NCBI RefSeq assembly: GCF_003315205.1
Contig: NZ_QNRR01000003.1
Span: 496,001 to 560,000 of the forward strand
Direction of reading: 5' to 3'
DNA length: 64,000 nt
Source of the DNA: Roseimicrobium gellanilyticum
GTDB taxonomy: Bacteria; Verrucomicrobiota; Verrucomicrobiia; Verrucomicrobiales; Verrucomicrobiaceae
Part shown: piece after piece, positions 3,950 to 22,770 of the stretch
How the letters are laid out: every line of letters begins with the position of its first letter
How positions within the stretch are numbered: the first letter of the stretch is position 1
Notes under the pieces: generated by a model
Told to the model about the DNA's origin: nothing
Databases searched by the model: none
What the model saw: only the letters and a program-made list of their open reading frames with translations
Made by a program: the position numbers and the translations under genes

Positions 3950-3952
3950 CAT

Positions 3953-4084
3953 GGTGCTGTGGCGGGGGCGCATCATTCCCGTGCCGTGCGCACGTCGCAA
4001 GCACGAGCGGGAGGATTATTCAGCAAGTACCGGTTGCCTCCGGCGGAAGCTGCCACACCTTGCACGCGAACCGCCGCTCGTGAC
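3953..4084. promoter_or_regulatory. Divergent intergenic region between hscB and the activase gene
   Basis: About 130 bp separate the divergent starts of the HscB-like and activase genes, so promoters for both should lie here. I see no convincing -35/-10 pair and no clear operator. A short GC-rich inverted repeat (GCCTCCGGCGGAAGC) occurs near 4037-4051, but it is too small to interpret. Confidence 0.3.
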
Positions 4085-7843: not shown

Positions 7844-7847
7844 TCTC

Positions 7848-9431
7848 ATGGCCACCACGAATGCTTCACGCACGGATGTCCCCACGCTCGCGGAGATCGA
7901 GGAGGAGATGAAAAGCTTCGAGATCGCAGAACGCAAGCGCCTCGGTCTCGAAGAGCGACCCGCAACTCAATGGCACGACCCAAACCCGCAAATCTTCACG
8001 AAGGCGCAGCGAGCCCACACCACCATCCTGCTTGGTGGTCTCACCATTGCACAGGATGCGTTCGTGAGAGCTGGACTTGAGGGCATCGGCTACCAAATCG
8101 AAGTGCTTCCCTGCCCCGACACGAAAGCTCTGCACCTGGGCAAGGAGTTCGGCAATCGTGGCCAGTGCAATCCCACCTACTTCACCGTGGGCAATCTCAT
8201 CAAGCGTCTCGTTTCCCTGCGTGATGAAGACAAGCTACCTGTGCCGGAGATCGTAAGTCGTTATGTGTTCATGACGGCTGGTGCGTGTGGTCCGTGCCGC
8301 TTCGGCACCTATGCCACGGAATATCGCAAGGCCCTGCGTGACGCGGGTTTCGAGGGGTTCCGCGTACTGCTCTTCCAGCAGCAGGGGGGCTTCAAGCAGG
8401 CAACGGGGAGTGATGTTGGCCTGGAGTTGACTCCCAGGTTCTTCATGCAAATCGTGAAGGCCATCGTCGCTGGCGATGTGCTTAATGCCATCGGATATCG
8501 CATCCGCCCCTACGAAGTGACCAAGGGCGATACCGATGCCGCACTGGAACGCTGCAAGGACATCATGTGCGAAGCGCTCCGGACAAGAAAATCATCCCTG
8601 CTGGCCCTGCGTCGCTGCCGCAAGGAACTGGAACGCATCCCAGTCGACCGCCTCCAGGCAAAACCCAAGGTGATGATCATTGGCGAGTTTTGGGCCATGA
8701 CCACTGAAGGTGACGGCAACTACCATCTGCAGCGATTCCTTGAGCAGGAAGGCGCCGAGGTGGAAGTGCAGGCCGTGAGCGCCTGGCTGCTCTACATGAT
8801 CTGGCAGGGGCAGCGGGACACCAGGCGCCGGCTGGAACTGAAGGAAAAGGACGAAGCAGGCAAAGGCCTCGCAAAGCGGAACGCGCCCAAACTACTTCGC
8901 AGGCTGTGGGCAGCAGACTGCGCATTGCGCTTCATTTTCCAGACGGCAGCACACTGTATCGGGCTTAAGGGTTTTCATCTTCCCGACATGGAAGAGGTCG
9001 CCTCACTGGCACAACCCCACTACGACGTCGAGCTTCGTGGAGGTGAAGGTCACATGGAAGTGGGCAAGCTCATTGAGGCCACGCGGAGCCATCGTGCCCA
9101 CATGATTGTTTCTGTAAAACCCTTTGGCTGCATGCCCAGCTCGGGTGTGTCTGATGGCATCCAGTCACTGGTAGCTACACGCCATCCGGAAATCATCTTC
9201 TGCCCCGTGGAAACCACCGGTGACGGTGCGGTGAATTTTCAGAGCCGGGTGCTCATGTGCCTTTTCCGCGCACGACGCAAAGCACGCGAAGAGTATGACA
9301 TCGCCCTGAAGAAGCGCGGCCTGACAGCGGAAGAGGCCCTCGTAAAGTGCCGCAGTGGAAGGCATCCCTTTGCGCACGCTCCCCATGTCACCGCAGGCTC
9401 GGCCGCAAATATGGTGCTCGCCATGCGCTGA
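7848..9431 (+). CDS. 2-hydroxyacyl-CoA dehydratase/double-cubane-like component
   Basis: A 527-residue soluble protein starting with ATG 7848, 4 bp after the activase stop. It resembles the C-terminal HgdB/DUF2229-type portion of the long single-chain activase-dehydratase proteins of anaerobes, so a fused protein elsewhere is probably represented here by two genes. Conserved-looking Cys residues include the one in RGQCNPTYF (~108) and Cys147 and Cys150 in ACGPCRFGTY, which could ligate an Fe-S cluster; further ones lie in KPFGCMPSSG near residue 427. The N-terminal 55 residues are charged and probably helical. Likely role: electron acceptor or catalytic partner of the upstream activase in a low-potential ATP-driven reduction. 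The real substrate cannot be read from the sequence. The last 16 bp before the convergent lgt-like stop hold no clear terminator. Confidence 0.78.
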   Translation: MATTNASRTDVPTLAEIEEEMKSFEIAERKRLGLEERPATQWHDPNPQIFTKAQRAHTTILLGGLTIAQDAFVRAGLEGIGYQIEVLPCPDTKALHLGKEFGNRGQCNPTYFTVGNLIKRLVSLRDEDKLPVPEIVSRYVFMTAGACGPCRFGTYATEYRKALRDAGFEGFRVLLFQQQGGFKQATGSDVGLELTPRFFMQIVKAIVAGDVLNAIGYRIRPYEVTKGDTDAALERCKDIMCEALRTRKSSLLALRRCRKELERIPVDRLQAKPKVMIIGEFWAMTTEGDGNYHLQRFLEQEGAEVEVQAVSAWLLYMIWQGQRDTRRRLELKEKDEAGKGLAKRNAPKLLRRLWAADCALRFIFQTAAHCIGLKGFHLPDMEEVASLAQPHYDVELRGGEGHMEVGKLIEATRSHRAHMIVSVKPFGCMPSSGVSDGIQSLVATRHPEIIFCPVETTGDGAVNFQSRVLMCLFRARRKAREEYDIALKKRGLTAEEALVKCRSGRHPFAHAPHVTAGSAANMVLAMR

Positions 9432-9447: not shown

Positions 9448-10236
9448 TTAGCTCGCGAGCCACTGTCTCAGCACCAGCGCGCCACCGGCGCCAAGCGCCA
9501 GTGCGCCGGCCACGATCTGATTGATGCGCCACCTGCCCATGATGACATCCGGTCGCTCACGCAACGGTTCCAGGAAAAACCTTCCCACACCGTACCAGGC
9601 TAGCACACCCAGCGCGTAGCTTCCGGGTAGGTAGCTCTTCGTCCAGAGCAGTAGAAATAGCACACCTCCAAGAAGCCACCAGGCCATCTCCATGAACTGG
9701 ACAGGAATGCGCCGCTTCCGGATGCACTGGATGTCGTGCAGGTGCACCCCCAGCGGACTCTGCGTTTCCCGTCCGACACAGCAGCCATTGAACACACACC
9801 CCAGTCGCACCCAAAAACCTCCCGCGAGAATTCCCGCCCCCAGGTGATCCCAAAAGGCTGCCGCGGGCACTCTCAGCAGCCACGCAACAACAAAGGTCAT
9901 GGGCACGAGAGTCAGGAGAGCACCAAAGACACTCCAGCCGCCGCGACTTCCATCCCAAAGAGACTTCCTTCCTGCCTCGCCCCGATATTGCTCCGCATGT
10001 ACCAGCAGATGATACACCCTGGCTCCAAAAAGACCCGCCAGAGCACACGAGAGCGCACCAAGTCCCACACGCAGTGGAGAGAGACCTGAGTGCTGCGCGA
10101 GCGCCCCACACGCGAGCGTGCCCATGTACAGTCCCACGCAGAGGAAGATCTTGTAGGAATTCACCCAATGCCCCGCGATCTTGAAGTAGCGGGGAAAGGC
10201 CTCGTGCATCACAGGATGCTCCACGCGGTCACTCAT
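9448..10236 (-). CDS. Prolipoprotein diacylglyceryl transferase (Lgt) family protein, divergent
   Basis: A 262-residue multi-pass membrane protein. Lgt attaches diacylglycerol to the lipobox Cys of prolipoproteins in the inner membrane. Visible family features are GSRGGWSVFGALL (96-108), RLGCVFNGCCVG (144-155, the R-x-GN/GC signature), a IPVQFMEM segment (~177-184, like HPxQLYE) and RFFLEPLRERPDV (219-231). At the position where canonical Lgt has the essential His of the HGG motif, this protein has Phe104. ATG 10236 is preferred: it overlaps the LspA-like stop as ATGA and has AAAGGAGG six bases upstream, whereas the longer start at 10269 has neither. It is the last gene of a seven-gene operon. 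It may be a dedicated paralogue for the odd lipobox proteins encoded upstream rather than the housekeeping enzyme. Confidence 0.8.
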   Translation of the reverse strand: MSDRVEHPVMHEAFPRYFKIAGHWVNSYKIFLCVGLYMGTLACGALAQHSGLSPLRVGLGALSCALAGLFGARVYHLLVHAEQYRGEAGRKSLWDGSRGGWSVFGALLTLVPMTFVVAWLLRVPAAAFWDHLGAGILAGGFWVRLGCVFNGCCVGRETQSPLGVHLHDIQCIRKRRIPVQFMEMAWWLLGGVLFLLLWTKSYLPGSYALGVLAWYGVGRFFLEPLRERPDVIMGRWRINQIVAGALALGAGGALVLRQWLAS

Positions 10237-10667
10237 ACCGGACCTCCTTTCATCACCGTCAACAGACACATCACCAGCCCGATGCCTCCAATGGTGATGG
10301 CCACATCCGCGAGATTGAAAGCTGGCCAGAATCGCAGACAGATATAGTCACAAATGACGCCACGGCGGGTGACCTCGATGGCATGACTAAGAGCTCCTCC
10401 AAGGAGCAGTCCAGCATACATGCCGCCCGCTGGCATGAGCAGAGTTCCGATGGTCAGAGCCAGGGCTGACAGCATCCACACACCCCAGATCAATCCCGAG
10501 CGTGGCGCATCATGAATGCGGGACAGCCAAATCCTGCCAGATACAAGCCGCAAGCATCCCAGCGCACCCAGGGGCACACTGCGTGCAGCAAGGACACTCC
10601 CCAGCCACGCCTTCACCCCATGGTCCACCACAGGCACAGCAAGGAGGATGGCAATCAACGCAAACAT
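10233..10667 (-). CDS. Signal peptidase II (LspA) family protein
   Basis: A 144-residue membrane protein with about four hydrophobic segments. LspA cleaves signal peptides of prolipoproteins after Lgt has lipidated the Cys. The C-terminal half is diagnostic: GGALSHAIEV (90-99), then RRGVICDY and FNLADVAITIG, with the catalytic Asp pair at 107 and 121. The usual GN-x-x-DR motif is changed to SH-x-x-EV, so it is a divergent member. An N-terminal D-x-x-x-K (15-19) also matches. I prefer ATG 10667, 7 bp after the preceding stop, with GAGTGA as a possible ribosome site; a GTG start at 10688 would overlap the preceding gene. It is coupled to the Lgt-like gene through ATGA. Having lspA and lgt side by side, behind genes for lipobox proteins, suggests a dedicated maturation pair. 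Confidence 0.78.
   Translation of the reverse strand: MFALIAILLAVPVVDHGVKAWLGSVLAARSVPLGALGCLRLVSGRIWLSRIHDAPRSGLIWGVWMLSALALTIGTLLMPAGGMYAGLLLGGALSHAIEVTRRGVICDYICLRFWPAFNLADVAITIGGIGLVMCLLTVMKGGPV
10243..10250 (-). promoter_or_regulatory. Strong Shine-Dalgarno site of the Lgt-like gene
   Basis: On the minus strand this reads AAAGGAGG, six bases before ATG 10236. It decides the start of the Lgt-like protein and is unusual here, because most genes in the window show no such site. It lies inside the end of the LspA-like gene. Confidence 0.7.
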
Positions 10668-10674
10668 GACAGAA

Positions 10675-13353
10675 TCACTCGGAAGCACCTACGGGCTCGG
10701 ACTCGACGACCTCGTATGATCGTGGATGATCGTCATGCATCGCAACACCAAATTGTGCCTGCTCCACCGTTCCCTCGGGATTCACCTCGACTGTCGTCGG
10801 CCAGCAGCGGACTCCGTACTTCCTCGCCTGACGCTGCTCTGAGTCTTGCACCACAGTGAAGGTGAGGCCCAGCTGGCGGCGGATCTCCTCCATTTTTTTC
10901 ACGTCCTTGCCCCCATGGAAGGAAATGATGGTGGGCGCATCTTTCCCGCCCTTCTCGTGAAGTTTTTGCAATCTCTCCAGCTCGGCGAGGGAAGGTGCTG
11001 ACCAGGATTGCCAGAAATTGAGAAATAGCGTCTGACCTCTCATCCGATGCAGTGCAAAGCTCTGCTTCTCGGAATCTCGGAATGCTACATCCGGCGCCGT
11101 GCATCCCGTCTCCACGGCAAGACTCAGTGGCTGCACACGTGGTGGCCCAGCTGAAACCAGATGCTTCTCCAAGGCAGCGGCCATCTCCCCGGCATCGACA
11201 TGTCCTTCAGCCTTCCATACGAACTCACGACGGGCGTTGATAAGGTAGTAGGATGGACGTTTGGAAAGTCCAAACGTGCGCCCCCACCCACCTTCATCGT
11301 CTTCTGCCAGTTGGAGTGACACAGGAAGTTTGGCCTCATCCATGCCCAGCTTGCCTGCCAGCTCCTTTTTGGTGCTGTCAAACGCCCCGGAAGGCAACAC
11401 TACAATCACCTGCAACGCGACATTGCGAAGCTTCATCTTGCCGAAAGCGTCGCGCAGAATCTGCAAGGGTCGTTCCGAAGGCCAATCCGCGAAATACACC
11501 AAAGTGTTCTGTCCTGGTGCCATCTTCTGCGGACGATCGGTTTGCACAGACACATGCCCTGCGATGGCCTGACGCAGCACTGCATCATCCGCAATATCCG
11601 GCATCCAAATCGGGACCGTGACCGGCTCCCACCATGAGGGCACGTCCAGTACAATATCTGGTGCGGGTGCAATGCACGTGGTACCGCCCGTGACATTCCT
11701 CGTCTGCCCATTGGCCAGAATCTGCGTACCCTCCAGACGGAGACATACATGACTGATGCTCGTGATGCCTGGAGGCTTGGGGAAGACAAAGCGGTGCATC
11801 TCCGTGGCTGTGCGCGTCACGCCATTCCAGATGCTGGGAGGAAAGTCCGGATACTCCACCCACGACCATACATGGCGAAGGATGCGCCCTCCCGGAATCC
11901 AGCTCTTCAACGCCGTAAATGCCGTGCGATGCTCTGTCTCACCGATCTCGACAATGGGATTGAGCCTCCCCGGACCTCCTATGTCTCCACGCACGATGAC
12001 CCCATCCACGGTGGTCTCAACTCCGCTGTATCGCACGGTTGATGCACTGTCGAAATTCCTCAAGCCACTGACCAGCTTGCTTCTCGCGTCATTGAACACC
12101 GCCTCCACCGAGTCCTCATTGGCATCGAGCGCCTTGTCGATCTCTGAACGCACAATGTTCGTCGAAGTTCCGCTGGGGATGAACCAGGACTCATCCACAT
12201 CTGGGTCGCCAATACGTCGCAGACTCGCGACCTGAGTACTCGTATTGAGCCGTATGGTGATGGCTTGCTTGAAGCTTACAAATCCGTTCGGTGCCCACCA
12301 CGTGCCTGTCTCCACCTCCACACGACCTGAAATCTCGATGGATCCGGCCTTGAAAGTCAAGGTGGGGCCACTGGAGAAGCGCAGCTTGTAAGTGACGGAC
12401 ACACCCACGCCCCAGTGCTCAATGCGGAGCGTGATACTGCGCGCAGCGACTGACGCACGGATGGCATCTATATCGATGAGTCCCTGCACATACTCCTTTC
12501 TCACCGCAAACGCGAATCCACTGGAGCCAACAAAGGAAGCATTGATGGGCTGCACTCCCGATGCCGGAGCTCCCGCACCAGACAGCTGCAGTGGCAACGC
12601 CAGCACCTGCCCCACCACACCAATCCCCTTGAACTGGGAGAATGGGAAACCTGCGGGCAAATCCACCGGAAGCGTATCGATACCTTCGCGCACGACTTTC
12701 CGAATCTGTGCCGCCAGCACACCGGCCTCAGCGGCACTAAGGCCGCTGGCGGGATCAGCAATGAACCGGATCTTGGAATCCTGGTTGGACGCTTTGACGA
12801 AGAGCCGCGTCTTTCCTTGATACGGTTGGGTCCTGATCTCAAAGGTTGCCTGCACCTCTCCATGCACAGGCTTGGGCAGCTCCCCGGTGTTGTCGTCGGG
12901 ATAGTAGTGCGCTCTGGCAAAGGCATGAAGAATGACCTCTGACGACGAACCTTGGGGAAAGCTCACCTGCAGGGTGGAAATCTGGATGCGCGCCCTTCCC
13001 CGGATCACTTCAGGCGGAATCTCGATCACCTCAATGTTGTCCAAGTCTGCAAAGATGTCCTTGAACTTGCCTGCCACGCCTGGTGGGGAGGTGCTCACGA
13101 ACTGATCCTTGAGATCCTTGATGGGGCGCGGTCCCTTTTCCTGCTGGAACTCAAACACCCAGTCACCAAAGTCGAGCACATGATCTGGAAACCTCCGTGG
13201 CGGATCACCAAGACGCGTGTCCACGCTGTGGAGCAGCTTGAGAGGCGCATTCTCGTAGGCGCCGTTCTGGTGCAGGGTGGCGAGCAGTCCGTTGATCTGC
13301 CTTACCGAGATTTCCACCACCGCTTCGTAGTCTCCTGTCAGGTTGTTGGCCAT
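10675..13353 (-). CDS. Large protein of unknown function with C-terminal TlpA/thioredoxin-like fold, no CXXC (paralogue of 15194-17848)
   Basis: An 892-residue protein, paralogous to the 884-aa product encoded two genes upstream. Both begin with a shared motif, LTGDYEAV then VRQ[IV]NGLLATLHQNG, and share NGFVSFKQ, DESWFI and WIPGGR further on. I do not recognise the N-terminal ~600 residues; they look beta-rich and without signal peptide or membrane segment. Two thioredoxin-like stretches follow: one around 645-770 and a TlpA/AhpC-like domain around 770-870. In the last, the redox motif WC-x-x-C is replaced by WSAPS, while the following helix and the cis-Pro region (RCWPT) are kept, so thiol chemistry is not expected. 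It starts 1 bp after the stop of the third lipobox protein gene. A structural or binding role with that protein is a reasonable inference. Confidence 0.7.
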   Translation of the reverse strand: MANNLTGDYEAVVEISVRQINGLLATLHQNGAYENAPLKLLHSVDTRLGDPPRRFPDHVLDFGDWVFEFQQEKGPRPIKDLKDQFVSTSPPGVAGKFKDIFADLDNIEVIEIPPEVIRGRARIQISTLQVSFPQGSSSEVILHAFARAHYYPDDNTGELPKPVHGEVQATFEIRTQPYQGKTRLFVKASNQDSKIRFIADPASGLSAAEAGVLAAQIRKVVREGIDTLPVDLPAGFPFSQFKGIGVVGQVLALPLQLSGAGAPASGVQPINASFVGSSGFAFAVRKEYVQGLIDIDAIRASVAARSITLRIEHWGVGVSVTYKLRFSSGPTLTFKAGSIEISGRVEVETGTWWAPNGFVSFKQAITIRLNTSTQVASLRRIGDPDVDESWFIPSGTSTNIVRSEIDKALDANEDSVEAVFNDARSKLVSGLRNFDSASTVRYSGVETTVDGVIVRGDIGGPGRLNPIVEIGETEHRTAFTALKSWIPGGRILRHVWSWVEYPDFPPSIWNGVTRTATEMHRFVFPKPPGITSISHVCLRLEGTQILANGQTRNVTGGTTCIAPAPDIVLDVPSWWEPVTVPIWMPDIADDAVLRQAIAGHVSVQTDRPQKMAPGQNTLVYFADWPSERPLQILRDAFGKMKLRNVALQVIVVLPSGAFDSTKKELAGKLGMDEAKLPVSLQLAEDDEGGWGRTFGLSKRPSYYLINARREFVWKAEGHVDAGEMAAALEKHLVSAGPPRVQPLSLAVETGCTAPDVAFRDSEKQSFALHRMRGQTLFLNFWQSWSAPSLAELERLQKLHEKGGKDAPTIISFHGGKDVKKMEEIRRQLGLTFTVVQDSEQRQARKYGVRCWPTTVEVNPEGTVEQAQFGVAMHDDHPRSYEVVESEPVGASE

Positions 13354-13354
13354 A

Positions 13355-14233
13355 TCATGCGACGTCTATGGTTTCGATGAGATAGATGGTGTCGGACACC
13401 ACATAGGGCTGCGCTCCGGGATTGGCAGCGTTGGGAATACGATCCGCCACCGCTGCTTCGGCCGTAGCGCCTTTCACGAAGCAAGTCGCCTGTGACGCGG
13501 GAACGAAACTCTGATTGCGAACAGTTCCCTGGGTGGAATTGATATCGAAGATCACCAGCAGCGGTCTGGAAGGGTCCAGGGTGTATTGCACCACGGGCAG
13601 TGGTAGAGACATGCCTTGGGGTACGGACACCGCCGTTGCCACCATGGTCAGGTCACCCGCTGAGTCATACGGATTACCAACAGCAGCCGGCTGTGAAATG
13701 TAGACCCTGTCCAAGACGAGGCTTCCTGAGTTTGGTCCCCTTACCGTGATAAACACATGGAATCCCCCAGCCGCCAGCACGGCCGGCTCGAGTCGCTGCG
13801 CGAGACAAAAGCCCTCCACAAGAGTTTGATCCATCGACAGGCTGGAAGTAAAGCAGCGCACCGGTGGCAGCGTCGTGGCGGACACCTCCGAGGACGGATC
13901 TGTATCAAACCCACCATAGAGGGCACGCACCTGGAAGCGATACAGCGTACTTGGGAGCAGCCGCTCAGCCCGGGCGCTCGTGACATCTGACATCAAGGTG
14001 ACCGGGACTGTTTCCTGCTCTTTGAAGACATCCACTTCGAACGTCACTCCTGCCACCGCCTCGTGGGTCCACGTGAGGGCCACGAACCCCGGCCCCACTT
14101 CGGTGACCGTCACATCGGCAGGGATGCTGGGAAAGTATCCCCTGGCTTCGAAGCTGCAGCCGGCATAGCCCCACAGCAGCACTACGGGCACGATGATGAA
14201 GGGAACGAGCAGAACTAGAAGTGTCCATTCCAT
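13355..14233 (-). CDS. Lipobox-like, FN3-containing envelope protein (third copy)
   Basis: A 292-residue protein starting at ATG 14233 (MEWTLLVLLVPF); longer in-frame starts run into the preceding gene and lack any signal. The N-terminus is a hydrophobic segment without positive charge, ending in WGYAGC with Cys26, so it resembles a lipoprotein signal with an unusual n-region and Tyr at -3. Residues ~38-130 look like one fibronectin type III domain (ADVTVTEVGPGFVALTWTHE). The C-terminal ~150 residues form a beta-rich domain shared with the other two copies: GFCLAQR, an ISQPAA-x-GNPYDSA segment, and a final IYLIETIDVA. No ribosome site is evident. Likely a cell-envelope protein anchored by the N-terminal segment or lipid. 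Confidence 0.72.
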   Translation of the reverse strand: MEWTLLVLLVPFIIVPVVLLWGYAGCSFEARGYFPSIPADVTVTEVGPGFVALTWTHEAVAGVTFEVDVFKEQETVPVTLMSDVTSARAERLLPSTLYRFQVRALYGGFDTDPSSEVSATTLPPVRCFTSSLSMDQTLVEGFCLAQRLEPAVLAAGGFHVFITVRGPNSGSLVLDRVYISQPAAVGNPYDSAGDLTMVATAVSVPQGMSLPLPVVQYTLDPSRPLLVIFDINSTQGTVRNQSFVPASQATCFVKGATAEAAVADRIPNAANPGAQPYVVSDTIYLIETIDVA

Positions 14234-14294
14234 GGTATTGGTTGGTTGAATGGTGGTCGAATGTGACGCGCAATAATGCTGGCGCAGGAGCGGC

Positions 14295-15197
14295 TCACCC
14301 CACGTCGATGCGCCGCACGAGATAAATGCTCGGTGAAGGGTTGTAAGGTGGTGCGCCGGGATTGGCAGCTGACGGGAGGCGATCCTGCACACCGGCCTCC
14401 GCTGTCGCGAGTTTGAAGAACATGGAGGCATCTGTGCCCGGCACGGGATTGAGATGGCGGACATTCCCCATTCCAGGCTCTGTGCTGATATCGAAGGCCA
14501 CCAGCAGTGGAATGGTTTGATCCAACCCGAATTCCACAATATTCAACTCCTTGACCTCGCCTGCTGCGATGGAAACCCCCGTGGCGACTTCCTTCAGATC
14601 CATCGCAGAGTCATATGCATTTCCAGAGGCCGCCGCATGCGAGATGGTCACGCGATCAATGAGCAGGTTCCCCACAGTAGAACCCTGCAACACCAACCTT
14701 ACCTTGGTGCCACTGCGAAAGAGTCTCACGGGCTCGATGCGCTGAACAATGCAGAAGCCACCGAGGTTTGCCTGATCGCCCGTCAAGGTGGCGCTGAATG
14801 CAGGTTCGAAGTCGAGCGTTGTTCCGGAAGCCCTTTCTGAGGGCGGCGTTTCTTCTTGTGGGTTTTCCCTGGGGGCAGCGGTGATCTCGTATGTGTACTC
14901 GGAATTGTGCAGGAGATCGCTGTTGTCGACATACTCGGTCTCCTCCGTTTCGAAAACGGCTTCCGTCCCCGGTGTTACGCGGTAGATCCTGAATAGAGAG
15001 GGGTATCCCTGCGAATTCACCCAGGTGATTTTGATTTCGCTCACACTGATCCCCATGGCCTTTACATTGGTGGGAGTACGGGGCTTGATCTCATGCAGAC
15101 CGAACACCACATCGCAGCCTGCGAAACCACCCAGCAGGATGATAGGCGCCACTATCAGGGGGACCAGCAACAGCAACAGAATCCACTCAACCGTCAT
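14295..15197 (-). CDS. Lipobox-like, FN3-containing envelope protein (second copy)
   Basis: A 300-residue protein starting at ATG 15197, overlapping the previous stop as ATGA and preceded by AAGGAGG. The signal-like segment (TVEWILLLLLVPLIVAP) has no Lys or Arg and ends in GGFAGC with Cys28. Residues ~38-130 look like an FN3 domain (PTNVKAMGISVSEIKITW). The C-terminal domain is shared with its paralogues: GFCIVQRIEP, ISHAAASGNAYDSA and IYLVRRIDVG. Translational coupling to the large TlpA-like protein gene upstream argues that the products work together. Whether Cys28 is lipidated is inferred from the lipobox resemblance and the Lgt/LspA-like genes in the operon. Confidence 0.75.
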   Translation of the reverse strand: MTVEWILLLLLVPLIVAPIILLGGFAGCDVVFGLHEIKPRTPTNVKAMGISVSEIKITWVNSQGYPSLFRIYRVTPGTEAVFETEETEYVDNSDLLHNSEYTYEITAAPRENPQEETPPSERASGTTLDFEPAFSATLTGDQANLGGFCIVQRIEPVRLFRSGTKVRLVLQGSTVGNLLIDRVTISHAAASGNAYDSAMDLKEVATGVSIAAGEVKELNIVEFGLDQTIPLLVAFDISTEPGMGNVRHLNPVPGTDASMFFKLATAEAGVQDRLPSAANPGAPPYNPSPSIYLVRRIDVG

Positions 15198-17848
15198 AGG
15201 GCCTCCTTGGGTGTAGCTTTTCCAGCAGGTTCCATTTCCCGTTCTGGCACGAGGCCAAAGGTGGCTTCGCGTAGTGCGCCATCACGCCCAATCCGCACAG
15301 CAGTCGGCCAGCAGCGCACACCGAACATGCGCGCAATGCGATGCTCCCCGTCTTGTGTCAGAAGGAAGCGGGCGCCCGATTCCCTAGAGGCCTCATGGAT
15401 GGCCTCCGGGTCCGGACCACCGTGCACCGCGATGATCTCCAGTTTCTCGCCGTCTTTCCCGCCGTCAGCATGGAGACGCTGGCATCTCTGCAATTCCTTG
15501 CGACAAGGCGACGACCATGACTGCCAGAAGAGCAGCAACACCTCTCTTCCCCTGAACCGATGCAAGGCATGCACGGTACCATGCTGATCTTCGAACTCAA
15601 AATCAGGCACCGCTGCTCCACGCTGCAGTGCCAGTGACAGTGGCTTGAACGCTGGTGCCAACGCAGGAGTCAGGTGATACTGCAGCACCTGCACCATCTC
15701 ATCGAGATTGCCTTCCTGCTCTTGCTTCCACACGAATTCACCACGAGCATTCAGCAAGAAGGTCGCGGGAACATCGCCTGCGGCGAACGTCCGGCTCCAT
15801 CCACCGTCCATGTCTTCCGCAAGCTCCACGGAAACGGGAAAGTCCCCCTCCAACTCCCTGAGTCGGGACTCGATTTCACGATAACTGGCCCGCTGGAATG
15901 TCCCGGCAGGAAGCACCCAGACGACGGACAGCGGATGAATTCTGTTTCCAGTCGCCTGAAGCGCTTTTTGGATCACTCGCATGGGGGTCTCGACTTCCAG
16001 CGAGGCGAATCTTACAAGTGTATTGATTCCACGACCTGCTGATGGTCCTCTCTCCCCGAGGACATTCACATAACCGGCAATGATCTCCTCAAGAAACTGC
16101 TCAGGAGGTCGCGGCAGCCAGATGGGCAGGTAGACAATCTCCCACCATGGCGGCTGCACGAGGATGGGTTCGCGCTCGCTGACCTGGCACGTTCGCCCCG
16201 CAACGATAGGTTGTTCCACTCCATTCGCATCAAGCTGGGTTCCTTCTATTTTGAGGCAGACGCGACTCAGTGACTGGGCCTCCGCAGGTTTCGTCAGCAG
16301 GAAGCGGTGCTCCTCCACCCTCTGTTTCACTTCACCGAACCACGGAATCTGATGTTCCTTCACCCATGTCCAGATGAAACGGTCAACCCTCCCTCCGGGT
16401 ATCCAGCTATGCAGCGCAGAGAAGCTCTTGCCATCAGGCGTCTCACGCACGTCCACAATAGGCGCATAATGGTAGCGCGTGGTCACGGAGCCGCGGATGA
16501 CGATACCATGAGGTGTGATCTCAACTGCATCAAACCTTGCCTCTGCAGAATCATCGAAGGACTTCAGTCCGCCATTGAATCTCGCACGGATGCTGGCGAA
16601 CGTGGCGTTGACTTGGGGTGATGCAGACGCAAGGGCATTGGCAATGGCGGACTTCACCGCGCCCACGGCAGTGTTGTGTGAGATGAACCAGGACTCGTCC
16701 ACTACGGGATCACCCGCGGCCTTCAGTGTCACCGTCTGCGTGGGCGCATGCAGTTCCAACGTGACCGACTGTTTGAAACTTACGAACCCATTGGGCAGAG
16801 CGGATGAAGTCGTCAGCGCCACATTCCCTGAGATCTCGATCGTGCCGGCTTTCCATGCCAGGGCAGGACCCGAACTGAAGCTCGCGTGATATGTCCCGGA
16901 GACAAAGAGGATGGTGACGTTGATGCGGAAGGCGCTGAGAGACGCCTTGACCGAGTCCATCAATGGCGCGAGCAGCGCTCCGATGTGATCCTTGCTCACC
17001 GCGATGGCGTATTCACTTCCACCCAGGAACAGATTTTGAATCGTGCCCAATCCCGCCGAAGGCGCCACGCCACCAGACATCTGCATGGGCAGCGCGATGG
17101 CATCTCCCATCCCCTTGAATGCAGCAAACGGGAAATCTTGGGAAATGACAAGGTCCAGGGGCCTCAGCTTGCCTCGCACCAATTTGCGGAGCTCTCCTGA
17201 AATCTTGTCTGACTCCGCAGCGCTCGTGCTCGTGCCAGCATGACGCTCGAAGTAAACTTTCGAATCACTTCCAGAAGGGGTCACCTTCAGGACCCTCTGC
17301 CCCTGCGGATTGGTGGCCGGAGACACCTCGTACGCGATATTCACATCGCCATGAATGGGATCGGGCAGAGTAGCGGTGCCCGGCGCAGGCAGATATCTTG
17401 CGCGTATGGAGGCCCTCACCATCACCTCGGAGTCGGCTCGCGGCCCCAGGGAGATTGTGGGAGATGACACCTGGACTTCCACCTTTCCGTGAAGATCACT
17501 CTGCATGATGAGCCCGGGAATGGATTCCTGGATGGCAATGATCGCTTCTGAGAGTCTGCTGGCCACGCCTGGAGCCGCGACCTTCACCGCATTCTCCCGA
17601 TAGACCTTAAAGGTGCCGCTGTCCTGCCAGAGCTTCTGCCCCGCAATCCACGTATGCAGTCCCCCGATGCCAGGAGACGGTCCAGGCTCGGTGGTCCCCT
17701 GTCCAATCATGTATGCAATGACGTGTGGCAGGGAGGGCGAACGCTGCGGGATATCGCCATTCTGATGGAGAGTGGCCAGCAGACCATTCACCTGACGGAC
17801 GCTGACCTGCAGCACCGCTTCGTAATCGCCTGTAAGTTCGTTCGCCAT
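15194..17848 (-). CDS. Large protein of unknown function with C-terminal TlpA/thioredoxin-like fold (paralogue of 10675-13353)
   Basis: An 884-residue protein that starts 2 bp after the preceding stop. It is the paralogue of the 892-aa product and shares its N-terminal signature (LTGDYEAV, VRQVNGLLATLHQNG), NGFVSFKQ, DESWFI and WIPGGR. The large N-terminal part is not recognised and seems beta-rich. A thioredoxin-like stretch occurs around 640-760 and a TlpA-like domain around 765-870. There the active-site position reads WSSPC: the first Cys of CXXC is lost and the second kept, while RCWPT marks the cis-Pro loop. No signal peptide is visible, so location is uncertain; the neighbours suggest the envelope. 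Its gene is flanked by two lipobox-protein genes, one of them coupled by ATGA. Confidence 0.7.
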   Translation of the reverse strand: MANELTGDYEAVLQVSVRQVNGLLATLHQNGDIPQRSPSLPHVIAYMIGQGTTEPGPSPGIGGLHTWIAGQKLWQDSGTFKVYRENAVKVAAPGVASRLSEAIIAIQESIPGLIMQSDLHGKVEVQVSSPTISLGPRADSEVMVRASIRARYLPAPGTATLPDPIHGDVNIAYEVSPATNPQGQRVLKVTPSGSDSKVYFERHAGTSTSAAESDKISGELRKLVRGKLRPLDLVISQDFPFAAFKGMGDAIALPMQMSGGVAPSAGLGTIQNLFLGGSEYAIAVSKDHIGALLAPLMDSVKASLSAFRINVTILFVSGTYHASFSSGPALAWKAGTIEISGNVALTTSSALPNGFVSFKQSVTLELHAPTQTVTLKAAGDPVVDESWFISHNTAVGAVKSAIANALASASPQVNATFASIRARFNGGLKSFDDSAEARFDAVEITPHGIVIRGSVTTRYHYAPIVDVRETPDGKSFSALHSWIPGGRVDRFIWTWVKEHQIPWFGEVKQRVEEHRFLLTKPAEAQSLSRVCLKIEGTQLDANGVEQPIVAGRTCQVSEREPILVQPPWWEIVYLPIWLPRPPEQFLEEIIAGYVNVLGERGPSAGRGINTLVRFASLEVETPMRVIQKALQATGNRIHPLSVVWVLPAGTFQRASYREIESRLRELEGDFPVSVELAEDMDGGWSRTFAAGDVPATFLLNARGEFVWKQEQEGNLDEMVQVLQYHLTPALAPAFKPLSLALQRGAAVPDFEFEDQHGTVHALHRFRGREVLLLFWQSWSSPCRKELQRCQRLHADGGKDGEKLEIIAVHGGPDPEAIHEASRESGARFLLTQDGEHRIARMFGVRCWPTAVRIGRDGALREATFGLVPEREMEPAGKATPKEAL
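15202..15208 (-). promoter_or_regulatory. Shine-Dalgarno site deciding the start at 15197
   Basis: Reads AAGGAGG on the minus strand, four bases before ATG 15197 and inside the end of the upstream gene. It supports coupled translation of the second FN3/lipobox protein. Confidence 0.6.
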
Positions 17849-17850
17849 GG

Positions 17851-19029
17851 CTAGGCGGCCTCGATTTTTTCGATGAGGTAGAAGTTGTTGGATGGCTGAA
17901 AGTCGGATGCCCTGTTTGCGGTCTGCGCCTGCTGCGTTGCCGCTTTGACATACATCTTGGTCTGGGCATCCACCAAAGGACCGTAACGGACATTGCCCTG
18001 GCCCATCGTGGATGAAACATCGAAGGCGATGAGAAGAGGTTTGGTTTTATCCAACGCGAACGCTGCAGGAGGAAGCGTCACAGAAACGCCCGCGGGCACG
18101 GTGACGTTTGTACCCAGCAGCACGAGCGGCGCCGCAGAATCCCACGCCTCCCCCGAAGGAACCGCATGGGAGATCGTGATGGCAGAAAGGATGAGTGGCC
18201 CTGTCACCGCGCCGCGGATCGTCACTCTCACCTGAGTGCCGCTGTTCGCCAGGCGATCAGTTCCAATGCGCTGCACAAAACAAAAGCCCGGTGCAGCTTG
18301 ATCGGTAGTGAGAGGGACCGGCATGCCCGTGGGCGGAGGGAACACTGGTTTAAAGGACAGTGTGGTCACCGTCACCTTGACATCCGGCACAGATACCACA
18401 CGCTCCGGCACTCCCTTGTTCACGCCATCCACAAAGGCACGGAGGCGGTATTCGTAGGTTGTACCGGGCGTCGTTGTGGTATCTTGATGAGCAGGCGGCG
18501 CGCCTCCGCTTTGTGTTATTTCAAAGTTTGCACCCGCACGTTCAAGAGTGAAGCGCGTGGCCTTGTTCGAATTGTTCTTCCACGTGAGATTGCTCGAGTT
18601 GAGTCCCGGCGTGGCCACCAGATCCGATGGTGCGGCAGGGCGAGTTGTAGCACTTGCTTCCGCAGAGGTGAAGGCTGCGGAGAGCACGGTCCCCGTGACA
18701 TCCGTGGCAATGAGCTGATAAAAGAATGTGGTGCCTTCAGGGAGATCGATGTCATCTGCCTGAGTGCCAGCGATATCTTGTAGCGCAGGGACCGGCGCGA
18801 CACTTCCCGAAGACTCCCCTCGTGAGATGCGGAATTTTGCGGTCGCCTCCGGGTGCGTCCATCGCAGTGTAATTTTCCGGTCGCCTGTCCGCTCTGCGAT
18901 CAGAGACGTCGGCGGTGGCGTCGTGGGTGCTTCACCGGCACCAAAGCTTCCGCATCCGGCGAATCCGCACATCAACACCACCGGCACCAAAACCAGTGGG
19001 GCCAACAGCGCGAGCAGCAGCCATTCCAT
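17851..19029 (-). CDS. Lipobox-like envelope protein with two FN3 domains (first copy)
   Basis: A 392-residue protein and the first gene of the seven-gene operon. The N-terminus (MEWLLLALLAPLVLVPVVLM) is hydrophobic without positive charge and ends in CGFAGC, with Cys26 at the lipobox position. Two FN3-like domains follow, around 38-128 (TSLIAERTGDRKITLRWTHP) and 130-215 (PSDLVATPGLNSSNLTW). The C-terminal ~150 residues are the domain shared with the copies at 13355 and 14295: GFCFVQRIG, ISHAVPSGEAWDSA and NNFYLIEKIEAA. It carries one FN3 domain more than its paralogues. Upstream lies a 245-bp gap with inverted repeats, where the operon promoter should be. Confidence 0.74.
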   Translation of the reverse strand: MEWLLLALLAPLVLVPVVLMCGFAGCGSFGAGEAPTTPPPTSLIAERTGDRKITLRWTHPEATAKFRISRGESSGSVAPVPALQDIAGTQADDIDLPEGTTFFYQLIATDVTGTVLSAAFTSAEASATTRPAAPSDLVATPGLNSSNLTWKNNSNKATRFTLERAGANFEITQSGGAPPAHQDTTTTPGTTYEYRLRAFVDGVNKGVPERVVSVPDVKVTVTTLSFKPVFPPPTGMPVPLTTDQAAPGFCFVQRIGTDRLANSGTQVRVTIRGAVTGPLILSAITISHAVPSGEAWDSAAPLVLLGTNVTVPAGVSVTLPPAAFALDKTKPLLIAFDVSSTMGQGNVRYGPLVDAQTKMYVKAATQQAQTANRASDFQPSNNFYLIEKIEAA

Positions 19030-19274
19030 GGGACGGGGTCATTGAGATGACGCAGACTGTTCGCAATCGCTTCCCCAAGTGACAGAATCACGGAGTCGCG
19101 AATCGAGCGGGGTGCGACAGTCTCCTCCCAATCACGGGAAAATACCCGTAAATAAATGATCAACCTTCCGCAGGTCGTGTGCGGCAATCCGGATTGCTGC
19201 GCACGACCTGCATCTTTGGTCAGCATTTTGGCCTCCCAGTGCAAGTTGACTGCCTCTTGCTCTGGCAGAATCAA
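19030..19274 (-). promoter_or_regulatory. Intergenic region upstream of the FN3/TlpA-like/LspA/Lgt operon
   Basis: This 245-bp gap separates the response regulator stop from the first operon gene. It is one of the longest non-coding stretches in the window. It holds the large inverted repeat at 19170-19211 and a second, small one at 19134-19149 (ACGGG, loop, CCCGT). Between them is an AT-rich patch (about 19150-19165). A promoter reading left, toward the operon, is expected, but I find no convincing -35/-10 pair. Either inverted repeat could be an operator or a terminator of the upstream regulator gene. Confidence 0.35.
19170..19211. repeat. 42-bp inverted repeat (arms of 21 bp, almost no loop)
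   Basis: The left arm GCAGGTCGTGTGCGGCAATCC and its inverted copy at 19191-19211 match at 19 of 21 positions; the two differences become G-U pairs in RNA, so a transcript could pair along nearly its full length. It begins 61 bp downstream of the response regulator gene. No T-run follows on either strand, so a standard intrinsic terminator is unlikely; an operator, an mRNA-processing hairpin or a Rho-type end are alternatives. Confidence 0.6.
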
Positions 19275-19982
19275 TCAGGGCTGTCGCCCTGTGGAAGCAC
19301 TCAATCGATTGGATTCACCCCAGCGAATGGCATGACGCGTCACCGCTGCTCCGTCTTCAAGTTTCAGCTTGGCGCGGATATTCGCGCGATGCACATCTAC
19401 AGTCTTGGGACTGATGCGCATGGCCTCTGCAATCTGCGGAGTGCTGCGTCCTTCACCGAGAAGCTGGAACACTTCAAACTCGCGATCGGTCAAAGCATCA
19501 AGGCCATCCGTACCCTTGGGAGGCGTGCCGCTGGTGAAGGCCTGCAGGATATTGTCCGCAATATCTTCGCTCAGCCAGAGCTTGCCCGCTGCAACCTTGC
19601 GAAGTGCACGCTCGAAGATCTCGTAGTCCGCGCTCTTCATGAGATAACCCTTGGCACCCGCCTTGATGGCGCGGTGCGCATAAAGCGTCTCTTCGTGCAT
19701 GGACAGCACGAGCAGGGGCAGATTGGGATGCAGGGCATGCACATCCTTGATCAGCTCCAGGCCACTCCTGCCCGGCAGCGTGATGTCCACCACGAGCACA
19801 TCTGGCATGTCAGACTCGAGGTGGGTGAGGGCATCCGTGGCATTGGGCGCAGTCCATGCGCATTCAAAGCCGTCGAGACTGTCGATGAACTGCTTCATGC
19901 CTTCTCGCATGAATGTGTGATCATCGACAATGGCCACGCGCTGCACGCCGGCCGTCGTTTCTGGGTTTTCGGTTCGTTTCAT
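19275..19982 (-). CDS. Response regulator, NarL/LuxR family
   Basis: A 235-residue two-component response regulator. The receiver domain (about 14-130) has the acidic pair in IVDDH, the phosphoacceptor Asp66 (VVDITLPG), a Ser/Thr switch in VLSMHE and the conserved Lys in GYLMKS. The output domain (about 163-222) is a LuxR-type helix-turn-helix (LTDREFEVFQLLGEG, then KTVDVHRANIRAKL). It should bind DNA as a phosphorylated dimer. The start codon overlaps the kinase stop as ATGA, so kinase and regulator are translationally coupled. It is directly upstream of the FN3/TlpA-like operon, which makes that operon, or the inverted repeat between them, a plausible target; this is inference. Confidence 0.92.
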   Translation of the reverse strand: MKRTENPETTAGVQRVAIVDDHTFMREGMKQFIDSLDGFECAWTAPNATDALTHLESDMPDVLVVDITLPGRSGLELIKDVHALHPNLPLLVLSMHEETLYAHRAIKAGAKGYLMKSADYEIFERALRKVAAGKLWLSEDIADNILQAFTSGTPPKGTDGLDALTDREFEVFQLLGEGRSTPQIAEAMRISPKTVDVHRANIRAKLKLEDGAAVTRHAIRWGESNRLSASTGRQP

Positions 19983-21748
19983 AAGGCAAGTTCACTCCCC
20001 GTGGCAAGGCTTGCAACAGGGACTTCGCAGACGACTTTGGTGCCTCCTCCCGGCCTCGGCTGGAAGGAGATGCTAGCCCCGAGGACTTCCACACGTCTCT
20101 GCACCATGTGGAGCCCCATGCCCGCATTGCGAGGTGGGCTGGCTGGAAAGGCGACACCGTCATTCAGGACTTCGAGCCGCAGCATACGATCATCCTGCAC
20201 GAGATTGATTTGAATGCGGGTGGCCTGCGCATGCTTGGCTGCATTCACTGCCAGCTCCTGCGCGATGCGATAGACATGCGTGCTCATCTCGGGATCGAAC
20301 TGGGAGATGCCCTCTGAACAATGCACGACACAAGGCACCTGGAATGAACTCGTGATGAAGCGGCTCAGCTCCTGAATGGCCGGGCTCAAGTCTTCCACAC
20401 CACTGGCCACCGGCATGAGGCCTCGCGCAAAGCCACGCACCAGATTGTTCGCCAGGGCGAGATCGGACGCGAGCTCACCCGCCAGCTCTGCCTGGGGAAG
20501 ATGCGCGCCCACCAGGCTCTTGCGCAGCACACCGCTCTTCAGCTTCGCAGCGGCCAGTCGTTGGCACACATCATCATGCAGGTCACTGCCAATGCGCCGA
20601 CGCTCTTCCTCGGCTGCCTGCAGCAATTGTTTGTCCACGGTCTTTCGTTCCGTGACGTCGAAGGCAAAACCCGCCAGTGCATAGGGTTCATTGCGGTGAT
20701 CCTTCACCACGAAGGCACGCACCTGCAGCCAGCGCGCCGGCTTGCCTGCATGCACCAGCCGCAGCTCGACCTCTGCGGACTCCCCACCTTGCTGAAGGTC
20801 GCGAAGCAGCAGCAACAAACGACGACGCTCTTCCTTGGGCACGGCATGCAGCCAGTCCCACCGATGCGTCACCAGTCGGGTACGGCTGCGATTCCAGTAC
20901 ACCTCATAGGCATCATTCACACTGAGATCGGCAGGTTTCTTCAGGGGCGCCATCCAGAAGACGTCCCGGAGATTTTCCATCATCTTCTGCAATTGCGTTT
21001 CCGTGTCGCGCAGATTGGTGGAGGCTTCCAGGAAGCTGCGGGAAATGCGAGCCAGTTCGTCATTGCCACGCAGTGGTTCTGGCAGGGGTGCCCCCGTGCC
21101 CACGGCCTTCGCCTGCGAAATGAGCTGCTGCACGCGGGAGGTCACCAGGTGTTGCAGCAGGAGCCAGAGCAGCAGGCACGCGGCGAGCAGGAGGAAGCTG
21201 CGCGAGATGGTCTGGTTCAGCGCATGAGCACGAGCCTCAGCAATGGCCCGTGCAAGATCGTACTCCATGATGACCAGACCCTTCTCCGTAAAATAGTTCC
21301 CGGTCAGATAGGGGAATACCGACAAGTAGCGCTTGCCCGGATCCACTTCATGAATCTGCCCCTGCATGGTCTGCCTTGCCTTTGCCATGAGAGGTCGTGC
21401 GATCCGCAGTGGCGTAGAGTCCAGCGGAAGGCCCGTCCATTGCCGCTTGGAGGAGTGCTGCACGACATCATGCTGATCACTGATCACACCGCGGACAAGA
21501 TCCGGCGTGGCAGAGACATAGCTCATCTCCAGGTCCACCGCGTGATGCATGCTCCGCGCCAGCAGATGCTGCACCACACCGGACATGCGGGTGCCATCGG
21601 AGTAAGCCAGCAGCTCCAGCGACTTCCTCCGCACCTCCTCCTCACGCCGAAGCTGCATGACATGGTTCGACACCACCAGCGCGGCTCCGAAGAGCAGCAG
21701 GATGGCGGAGAGCCGGAACTGCAGGGTGCTGGCAAATCTCGGCATCAT
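19979..21748 (-). CDS. Membrane-bound sensor histidine kinase, NarX/HPK7 type with PAS domain
   Basis: A 589-residue kinase. A first membrane segment lies at about 10-28, a periplasmic part follows to ~185, and a second membrane segment (LLLAACLLLWLLL) lies near 188-203, then a HAMP-like linker and coiled coil. A PAS domain with C-terminal PAC (about 265-380) precedes a HisKA_3 dimerisation domain with phospho-acceptor His391 in DLHDD. The HATPase_c domain ends the protein, with NAAKHA as the N-box, LEVLNDGVAF as the G1 region and GMGLHMVQRR as G2. ATG 21748 is preferred over GTG 21757 because it overlaps the preceding stop as ATGA, like the next junction. It phosphorylates the coupled LuxR-type regulator; its ligand may be sensed with the substrate-binding protein encoded before it. 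Confidence 0.88.
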   Translation of the reverse strand: MMPRFASTLQFRLSAILLLFGAALVVSNHVMQLRREEEVRRKSLELLAYSDGTRMSGVVQHLLARSMHHAVDLEMSYVSATPDLVRGVISDQHDVVQHSSKRQWTGLPLDSTPLRIARPLMAKARQTMQGQIHEVDPGKRYLSVFPYLTGNYFTEKGLVIMEYDLARAIAEARAHALNQTISRSFLLLAACLLLWLLLQHLVTSRVQQLISQAKAVGTGAPLPEPLRGNDELARISRSFLEASTNLRDTETQLQKMMENLRDVFWMAPLKKPADLSVNDAYEVYWNRSRTRLVTHRWDWLHAVPKEERRRLLLLLRDLQQGGESAEVELRLVHAGKPARWLQVRAFVVKDHRNEPYALAGFAFDVTERKTVDKQLLQAAEEERRRIGSDLHDDVCQRLAAAKLKSGVLRKSLVGAHLPQAELAGELASDLALANNLVRGFARGLMPVASGVEDLSPAIQELSRFITSSFQVPCVVHCSEGISQFDPEMSTHVYRIAQELAVNAAKHAQATRIQINLVQDDRMLRLEVLNDGVAFPASPPRNAGMGLHMVQRRVEVLGASISFQPRPGGGTKVVCEVPVASLATGSELAL

Positions 21749-22713
21749 GGCTGGCACAACCGCGCATCCGTCCAGACATGATCCGTGCGCGGCCTGTCGA
21801 TTACCCCCTTTCTCGCAAGGAACTGGCCAATCTTCTCAATAGTGCCCTCCAATCCCTGCGGACCAGGGCTCAAAAGGGTGACGTTCTCTTCCTTGTTTGG
21901 CTGGTGGAGAAGGGTGAGCACCTCATGTAGACGATCCACCGTGAGCGACTCTCTCCGGGCGATGGCCTCAATCGCCTCTGGGGTCGCCCCTTCCCGGAGC
22001 ATTTCCAGGCCGGTGAAATGCCCATCCACCAGTTGCTTCAACGCCGGCAGGCGGGACTCCAGCACATCCGCCCGTACGGCGAGTACTCGCACGAGTTCAC
22101 GAGGCAACTCCTTGCTACTGAAGATCTCCACCCCGCCGTTCTCGATCACTTTGGAACGAAAGGGCTCGGATGTCACCACGGCATCAAGGCTCTGCTCAAG
22201 GAAGGCACCGGCAGATTCTGCAACATTCAACGGGACCACCTGCACATCCGCCATGCTCAACCCCTCCCTGTCGAGCGCCCGTGACAATACATAGGATCCC
22301 ATCGACGTAAGGCTTACCCCAATGCGGCGTCCTTTCAGGTCCTTGATGCCTGCCACACCCGGCCTCGTCACAATGGCATCAGCACCATTGGAAATATCCA
22401 TCACCAATACGGCCCGGATGTCGTGTCCCTGCTCGGCGAGCCTGAGCATTTCGTCCAAGGTCAGGACGGCGACGTCAGCCGCACCATTTTCGAATGCCCT
22501 CATCGTGGCCGAGGGCCAGGGCATCTCCATGATGGTGATGCTGTCAGGGATGTAGTCCATCTCATCCGCCAGGGCAATGGGCTCCACACCGGGCCACGTG
22601 CCCACCGCCACGGTGAGGGGACTCGTCCATTGCACCGGAGGCCAAAACACCCCGGCAACGGCAAAAATTGCCGCCAGAAAGGCCACAACAACTACTGAAA
22701 GCCGGGATGTCAT
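21745..22713 (-). CDS. Periplasmic substrate-binding-like protein (NMT1/SsuA/TauA fold), probably sensory
   Basis: A 322-residue protein related to the binding proteins of nitrate, sulfonate, taurine and thiamine-precursor ABC transporters. It starts at ATG 22713 (TSRLSVVVVAFLAAIFAVAG), a signal peptide or anchor with no lipobox Cys. Mature features include LTVAVGTWPGVEP, a GAADVAVLTLDEML segment, the IKDLKGRRIGVSLTSMGSYVLSRAL hinge region in two stretches, and LDAVVTSEPF. No ABC permease or ATPase gene accompanies it; instead the stop overlaps the kinase start as ATGA. This three-gene arrangement suggests it presents a small ligand to the histidine kinase rather than feeding a transporter. 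The ligand cannot be inferred. Confidence 0.82.
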   Translation of the reverse strand: MTSRLSVVVVAFLAAIFAVAGVFWPPVQWTSPLTVAVGTWPGVEPIALADEMDYIPDSITIMEMPWPSATMRAFENGAADVAVLTLDEMLRLAEQGHDIRAVLVMDISNGADAIVTRPGVAGIKDLKGRRIGVSLTSMGSYVLSRALDREGLSMADVQVVPLNVAESAGAFLEQSLDAVVTSEPFRSKVIENGGVEIFSSKELPRELVRVLAVRADVLESRLPALKQLVDGHFTGLEMLREGATPEAIEAIARRESLTVDRLHEVLTLLHQPNKEENVTLLSPGPQGLEGTIEKIGQFLARKGVIDRPRTDHVWTDARLCQP

Positions 22714-22770
22714 CTCAAGTATCCATGCAAGAAAACATGCCCAGGACAATAAGGTTCCCGCTTAGACCCT

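Follow-up and report, generated by a model that had tools for sequence, protein, structure and literature searches.

A probable dedicated lipoprotein route with its own signal, Lgt and LspA in Roseimicrobium gellanilyticum, probably inverted in the membrane

An operon with its own Lgt and LspA homologues

An operon of Roseimicrobium gellanilyticum encodes homologues of the diacylglyceryl transferase Lgt and of signal peptidase II (LspA), together with three FN3 proteins that are candidate substrates and two large proteins. It lies in the 64,000-nt stretch analysed here, which we call the window (GCF_003315205.1, NZ_QNRR01000003.1, positions 496,001-560,000) and to which all coordinates refer unless a locus is named. 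Read along the - strand, the genes are FN3-A, large protein 1, FN3-B, FN3-C, large protein 2, LspA2 and Lgt2, and some of the junctions overlap by 4 nt.

FN3-A (17851..19029, -) has an fn3 match of 26.5 bits and begins with the signal MEWLLLALLAPLVLVPVVLMCGFAGC (coding bases 18952-19029), an exact match to the pattern given below. Large protein 1 (15194..17848, -; 884 aa), for which no signal peptide is found, overlaps by 4 nt with FN3-B (14295..15197, -), whose signal is MTVEWILLLLLVPLIVAPIILLGGFAGC (coding bases 15114-15197). FN3-C (13355..14233, -) carries the signal MEWTLLVLLVPFIIVPVVLLWGYAGC (coding bases 14156-14233); its start was taken as the ATG at 14233, the mechanical open reading frame reaching 14539 being longer than the gene. 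Large protein 2 (10675..13353, -; 892 aa) is a paralogue of large protein 1 and has an AhpC/TSA match of 55.9 bits at 750-865. The private signal peptidase II homologue, LspA2 (10233..10667, -), matches PF01252 and has the dyad D107 and D121; its gene overlaps the start of lgt2 by 4 nt (ATGA). Lgt2 (9448..10236, -), the private diacylglyceryl transferase homologue, matches PF01790 and carries the motifs GGWSVFG and RLGCVFNGCCVGR. Its start was set at the ATG at 10236, which is preceded by AGGAGGT, and the program-made reading frame has a 5' extension. The preliminary description of this DNA had proposed one operon holding an Lgt-like, an LspA-like and three FN3 genes, and all of them lie where it placed them on the - strand.

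The N-terminal signal

Alignment of FN3-A, FN3-B and FN3-C, which begin MEW, MTVEW and MEW and end their heads in GFAGC, GFAGC and GYAGC, respectively, bears out the common head noticed in the preliminary description, which can be written EW-x18-G[FY]AGC, with no Lys or Arg and with Phe or Tyr at -3. The search that it proposed for further proteins with this signal found one. When the 7.93 Mb genome was searched at the DNA level for EW-x18-G[FY]AGC, four places matched exactly, namely the three FN3 genes of the operon and one gene approximately 150 kb away, and the remaining 12 places among the matches listed have two mismatches each. That fourth gene precedes one for the large protein, the third copy in the genome. 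Among the 387 genomes searched in this order, hydrophobic versions of the pattern occur in this genus alone; the few further matches cannot be read as hydrophobic segments, and a reversed-pattern control gave 0 in every genome listed.

The private signals were compared with the other signals of the genome by a lax search of 484 kb for lipoprotein-like N-termini. Among the 20 candidates obtained, Phe or Tyr at -3 is seen in the four private signals alone; these make up four of the five candidates without any Lys or Arg and are, apart from one, the most hydrophobic of the set. Nearly all the non-private candidates carry one to four Lys/Arg in the n-region.

With the homologues from other genomes described below, the consensus widens to [E/D]W, approximately 20 hydrophobic residues without Lys or Arg, and then [FY][AVIT]GC. 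All 15 substrate signals have Gly-Cys (a small residue at -1 and Cys at +1), and none has a Lys or Arg before the hydrophobic run, so that the positive n-region of a type II signal is absent throughout. Asp or Glu precedes the run in 13 of the 15, and two have an Arg at -4. The bodies of these proteins differ between genomes (FN3 or laminin-G); only the head is common to them.

Recurrence of the module

The trio of atypical signal, LspA2 and Lgt2 recurs beside the large protein in eight genomes from three phyla, which have housekeeping copies of the enzymes in addition. The operon and the second locus are both present in the congener G056, where the operon encodes four FN3 proteins. A scan for the large protein that covered 84,980 species found seven more loci, in five of which it stands beside an LspA, an Lgt of the GCC type (described below) and a protein with a similar N-terminus. 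These five are from Smaragdicoccus (L059), Acidobacteria (L060), Pyrinomonadaceae (L061), Mycolicibacterium (L062) and an actinobacterial metagenome-assembled genome (L063), with N-termini such as MTDWLALAVVVLAVVATFVLLFGFAGC, MTYWAFVLTPLVVLLIVLLFRFVGC and MIDWAVVLTPLLVLPIVLLFRFIGC. In G1128, from the mycobacterial family, the order is MAEWLVLALLVPAIVVPVVLLFGFAGC, large protein, LspA2 and Lgt2. The TULIP gene, as we call that of the large protein after the fold described below, adjoins a substrate gene in every module found, and the large proteins, about which the preliminary description is silent, are part of the module besides the signal proteins and the enzyme pair.

In three mycobacterial loci the large protein adjoins a small protein without the private signal (L064:12633-13316, L065:12607-13299 and L180:1-923). 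One of these signal-less partners has a HELAH motif and a weak match to M91 metallopeptidases (effector peptidases).

The module is rare, its large protein being present in one of the 387 genomes of the order besides that of the window, in one of 247 Acidobacteriota and in four of 301 genomes of the mycobacterial family. Lgt2 is 60% identical between the window and G1128 (Mycobacteriaceae), which, together with this rarity, points to horizontal transfer of the whole unit. Outside the genus, the large proteins, used as queries against the order, matched thioredoxin-like domains only. Two scans of viral contigs found no relatives, and plasmids gave nothing for FN3-B and only generic ResA/TlpA matches for the large protein.

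The private enzymes and their housekeeping counterparts

Canonical copies of both genes lie elsewhere, an lgt on contig 13 (236 bits to PF01790, versus 102 bits for Lgt2, which covers positions 3-235 of the 240 in the profile at a cut-off of 24.9) and an lspA on contig 12 (121 bits to PF01252, versus 43 to 45 bits for LspA2, at a cut-off of 25 bits). This second, canonical pair had been named as a check on the preliminary description, and the objection that the operon might hold the only lgt and lspA of the genome therefore does not apply. In phylogenetic trees, the seven private Lgts included form one clade (support 100/99) and the seven private LspAs another (95/95), each apart from the housekeeping enzymes.

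Every one of the eight genomes that have the private signal carries two LspAs, and each of the seven tested for Lgt carries two or more, the second Lgt of the L063 metagenome-assembled genome being a fragment at a contig end. The three genomes with the large protein and no private signal (L064, L065 and L180) have a single LspA, and L064 and L065, the two tested for Lgt, have a single Lgt. Signal and second LspA are thus present together and absent together (8/8 versus 0/3; one-sided probability 1/165). Taken with the housekeeping copies, the recurrence and the clades, these data make it very probable, as far as sequence can tell, that the module is a dedicated lipoprotein route with its own recognition, in which the FN3 proteins would be lipidated and cleaved. 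This much of the preliminary description is well supported; the periplasmic orientation that it tacitly assumed is taken up below.

Alternatively, LspA2 and Lgt2 might be spares of the ordinary kind or provide resistance to LspA inhibitors, for which there is some precedent. LspA is the target of globomycin-type inhibitors with known gene clusters (PMC9943842), and further paralogues of Lgt and of LspA are found in unrelated contexts. We regard this reading as highly improbable: no biosynthetic genes are seen nearby in the window, the pair accompanies the same substrates and the TULIP protein across phyla, and the other Lgt paralogues counted keep the normal charge pattern. Five loci with paralogues (L123, L124, L126, L211 and L212) were considered as further private systems and set aside; their contexts are different, and L123 and L124 have normal charge. 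Of these, L126:8371-9102 is the third Lgt-like gene of the congener; it comes immediately after a radical-SAM-like gene, and its charge pattern appears normal by eye. An Lgt-like gene (L212:6967-7740) and an LspA-like gene (L211:6755-7381) occur as lone paralogues in unrelated contexts in other Verrucomicrobiota.

LspA2 aligns to the solved LspA structures 5dir, 9emz and 6ryo, and both catalytic Asp residues (D107 and D121 in the window) are invariant across the LspA2 proteins; the NTG loop is missing or shortened. An alignment to the canonical Lgt of its own genome shows that Lgt2 retains residues equivalent to Arg143, Tyr235, Arg239 and Glu202 (E. coli numbering), with Lys for Arg143 in L062 and Asp for Glu202 in L063 as conservative exceptions. 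A sequence search with Lgt2 against solved structures returned nothing. The GCC-type Lgts, a large class in Verrucomicrobiota with YGG and GCxxNGCC motifs, share the motif changes of Lgt2 and provide the only Lgt in at least 19 genomes of that phylum (L096-L120). With such an Lgt as sole copy in 19 genomes, we rejected the idea that the odd motif of Lgt2 proves a new chemistry.

The invariant residues also bear on whether the N-terminal segment is simply an uncleaved anchor with a structural Gly-Cys, with Lgt2 and LspA2 acting on something else or as chaperones. A hydrophobic run of approximately 20 residues is enough to span the membrane, and conservation on both sides of the Cys is what an interacting helix would show. 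This explanation nonetheless appears very unlikely, given that all 15 substrates retain the Cys in otherwise diverging sequences, that a second LspA is present exactly where the private signal is, and that every LspA2 keeps both catalytic Asp residues.

The large TULIP protein

Large proteins 1 and 2 share approximately 40% identity. The large protein is modelled as two TULIP domains, a beta-sandwich and two thioredoxin-like folds, the TULIP assignment being based on an AlphaFold2 model of residues 1-475 (pLDDT 76.8). Comparison of this region gave a VIA Z of 17.1 to P47 over 347 residues, 16.7 to OrfX3, 13.9 to BPI, 13.0 to LBP and 12.1 to CETP, and Foldseek returned E-values of 3e-11 to CETP and 5e-11 to OrfX3. 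The Foldseek TM-scores are low, perhaps from a differing angle between the TULIP domains, and E-value, Z and coverage were used instead. The P47 Pfam profile has no match at E<=1 in the two large proteins of the window or at E<=0.1 in three relatives. The C-terminal domain is ResA-like (Z 18 to 19; thioredoxin-like domain Z 19.4), with its cysteines lost or down to one in the window; in large protein 2 both thioredoxin cysteines are gone (WSAPS).

None of the 13 copies of the TULIP protein has a hydrophobic N-terminus. By its modelled fold the large protein is of lipid-binding type, and it lacks a visible export signal. A role as a carrier of a lipid anchor or a lipid is a tentative suggestion, which we consider less likely than not.

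Reversed charge and membrane orientation

Normal LspA and Lgt follow the positive-inside rule. We counted Lys and Arg on the alignments in the loops that are canonically cytoplasmic or periplasmic and took the difference as cytoplasmic minus periplasmic. For LspA it ranges from -14 to -6 in eight private proteins and from -3 to +5 in 37 housekeeping ones; for Lgt it is -15 to -12 in eight private proteins and -4 to +10 in 37 others, which include sole Lgts of the GCC type as well as the housekeeping Lgts found in the module genomes. The ranges do not overlap for either enzyme. Per 100 residues, private LspAs have 5 Lys/Arg in cytoplasmic versus 15 in periplasmic loops (housekeeping 20 versus 7), and private Lgts 7 versus 16 (others 27 versus 8). 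The N-terminus of the LspA2 in the window cannot be extended to gain charge, since the frame is closed by a stop codon 24 nt before its ATG; the start codons are less certain in G056 and L062.

Were only the enzymes flipped, their active sites would end up on the wrong membrane side for the substrate; flipping all three components keeps the geometry. Reading the charge pattern together with the signal, which lacks positive residues before its hydrophobic run, we consider it probable that substrate, LspA2 and Lgt2 are all inverted in the membrane and work on its cytoplasmic face. The reversed charge argues against the periplasmic orientation assumed in the preliminary description.

A dedicated route could also operate in the normal orientation, with the signal N-in/C-out and both enzymes facing the periplasm, if something else lay behind the altered charge, for example a special insertase, unusual lipids or outer positive loops that bind the substrate or anionic headgroups. 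All the evidence for a private pair fits this arrangement equally, domains of the FN3 and laminin-G types are characteristic of secreted proteins, and the Arg residues of the outer loops are partly catalytic. It must explain, however, why inside positive charge is absent in three unrelated membrane proteins, and gained outside in two of them, in every member, and it leaves the lack of an export signal in the constant TULIP partner unexplained. We therefore judge the normal orientation rather unlikely, though clearly the strongest of the alternatives.

Several points weigh against an inverted pathway. As each private enzyme forms one clade, the reversal is one event per family and not eight, so that counting members overstates the case. 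The positive-inside rule is a tendency, and FN3, laminin-G and TlpA-like domains are usually extracytoplasmic. The residues directly after the Cys of the substrates are not positive, and the signal alone consequently predicts an N-out orientation only weakly. The inverted topology, lipidation and cleavage of the substrates are, moreover, all deduced from sequence data. With regard to catalysis, the GN..DR helix motif of LspA reads SH..EV in the window, with the loss of conserved active-site neighbours; its Asn and Asp are kept in the LspA2 of L060-L063. In all private Lgts His103 is replaced by Phe or Tyr and Asn146 by Cys, both residues being essential in E. coli Lgt (PMC8689077, the source for residue roles). 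The same two changes mark the GCC class, and since 19 genomes have such an Lgt alone, they are compatible with activity.

An inverted pathway would proceed as follows. The private head would insert N-out/C-in, with LspA2 and Lgt2 facing the cytoplasm and carrying out their usual chemistry on the inner face of the membrane. Lgt2 would add diacylglycerol to the signal Cys, and LspA2 would cut before that Cys on the cytoplasmic side. The co-encoded double-TULIP protein, signal-less and so presumably also inside, would bind the product or its lipid in a hydrophobic tube. On balance we lean towards this complete scheme, in which a cytoplasmic lipid-binding TULIP protein would serve the products of lipidation and cleavage on the cytoplasmic face. 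As guesses, the FN3 or laminin-G lipoproteins might act at an internal membrane or a lipid body, or be released when cells lyse.

Genes around the operon

Just upstream of FN3-A lies a NarL-type response regulator gene (19275..19982, -), with synteny kept in the congener, followed by a histidine kinase gene (19979..21757, -; HAMP, PAS and HisKA_3). This two-component system, with the kinase as possible sensor, may control the operon. The kinase gene overlaps one for an NMT1-type substrate-binding protein (21745..22749, -), whose membership of the module is unproven. The gap between the response regulator and FN3-A contains an imperfect inverted repeat (19168-19212; GCAGGTCGTGCG...GCACACGACCTGC), an operator or a terminator.

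Next to the module, one open frame of 10,987 codons (22794-55757, -) encodes a giant adhesin-like protein with an LEPR-type N-terminal motif (LEPRILLSA) and many GGxGxD-like repeats towards the C-terminus. On the other side, a convergent region (3764-9431, +) encodes a large protein resembling acyl-CoA dehydratase activases (BcrAD type) and a companion, and is syntenic in the congener.

Comparison with known systems

With canonical Lgt-LspA maturation the module shares the enzyme families, the LspA dyad, most of the substrate-binding residues of Lgt and the Gly-Cys box. It differs in its private clades, in a signal without a positive n-region and with Phe or Tyr at -3, in its fixed partner protein and in the reversed Lys/Arg of both enzymes. 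The GCC-type Lgts of Verrucomicrobiota resemble Lgt2 in having Tyr or Phe for His103 and the GC..NGCC.G motif, but they have a normal positive-inside pattern and a housekeeping role and fall outside the private clade. That so many sole Lgts lack His103 and Asn146 calls into question the generality of the E. coli active-site model.

The double TULIP fold of the large protein is that of P47, OrfX2 and OrfX3, BPI, LBP and CETP. Identity to these proteins is approximately 10%, and the large protein adds a beta-sandwich, two thioredoxin-like domains and a coupling to a lipoprotein-processing pair; in contrast to the P47/OrfX setting, there is no sign of a neurotoxin cluster at the module. The module thereby ties TULIP lipid-binding proteins to protein lipidation and offers a handle on P47/OrfX-like function.

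Bacterial lipoproteins are regarded as extracytoplasmic. If the inversion is true, this would be, to our knowledge, the first intracellular lipoprotein route in bacteria. It would imply an unrecognised class of intracellular lipoproteins and a multi-enzyme pathway that flipped in the membrane during evolution; the enzymes come from known families, and the inversion, if proven, would be categorically new. Independently of orientation, a signal served by an Lgt and an LspA of its own would demonstrate that the lipoprotein pathway can become private. The open-access literature searched contained no dedicated Lgt-LspA pair with a private signal and no inverted Lgt or LspA. Lipidated-peptide clusters of the RiPP type (ribosomally synthesized and post-translationally modified peptides) that use the lipoprotein pathway were considered and set aside: in the excerpted text of PMC12636315 their signal is canonical and positive, and no dedicated Lgt/LspA pair is named there.

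Dedicated pairing is familiar from other sorting systems, and PEP-CTERM/exosortase likewise joins a private tag to its own membrane protease. MYXO-CTERM and myxosortase (PMC11980579) are also alike in that a private tag co-occurs with its own membrane protease; the module differs from both systems in its N-terminal tag, the Lgt and LspA families, a tiny substrate set and adjacent genes. For the orientation, the closest parallels are YdgE/YdgF and YdgQ/YdgL, homologues of opposite orientation with distinct Lys/Arg biases of 6 to 7 (PMC3962082). Those proteins are antiparallel partners, whereas here a whole three-protein pathway would be turned over, with a bias of 6 to 15.

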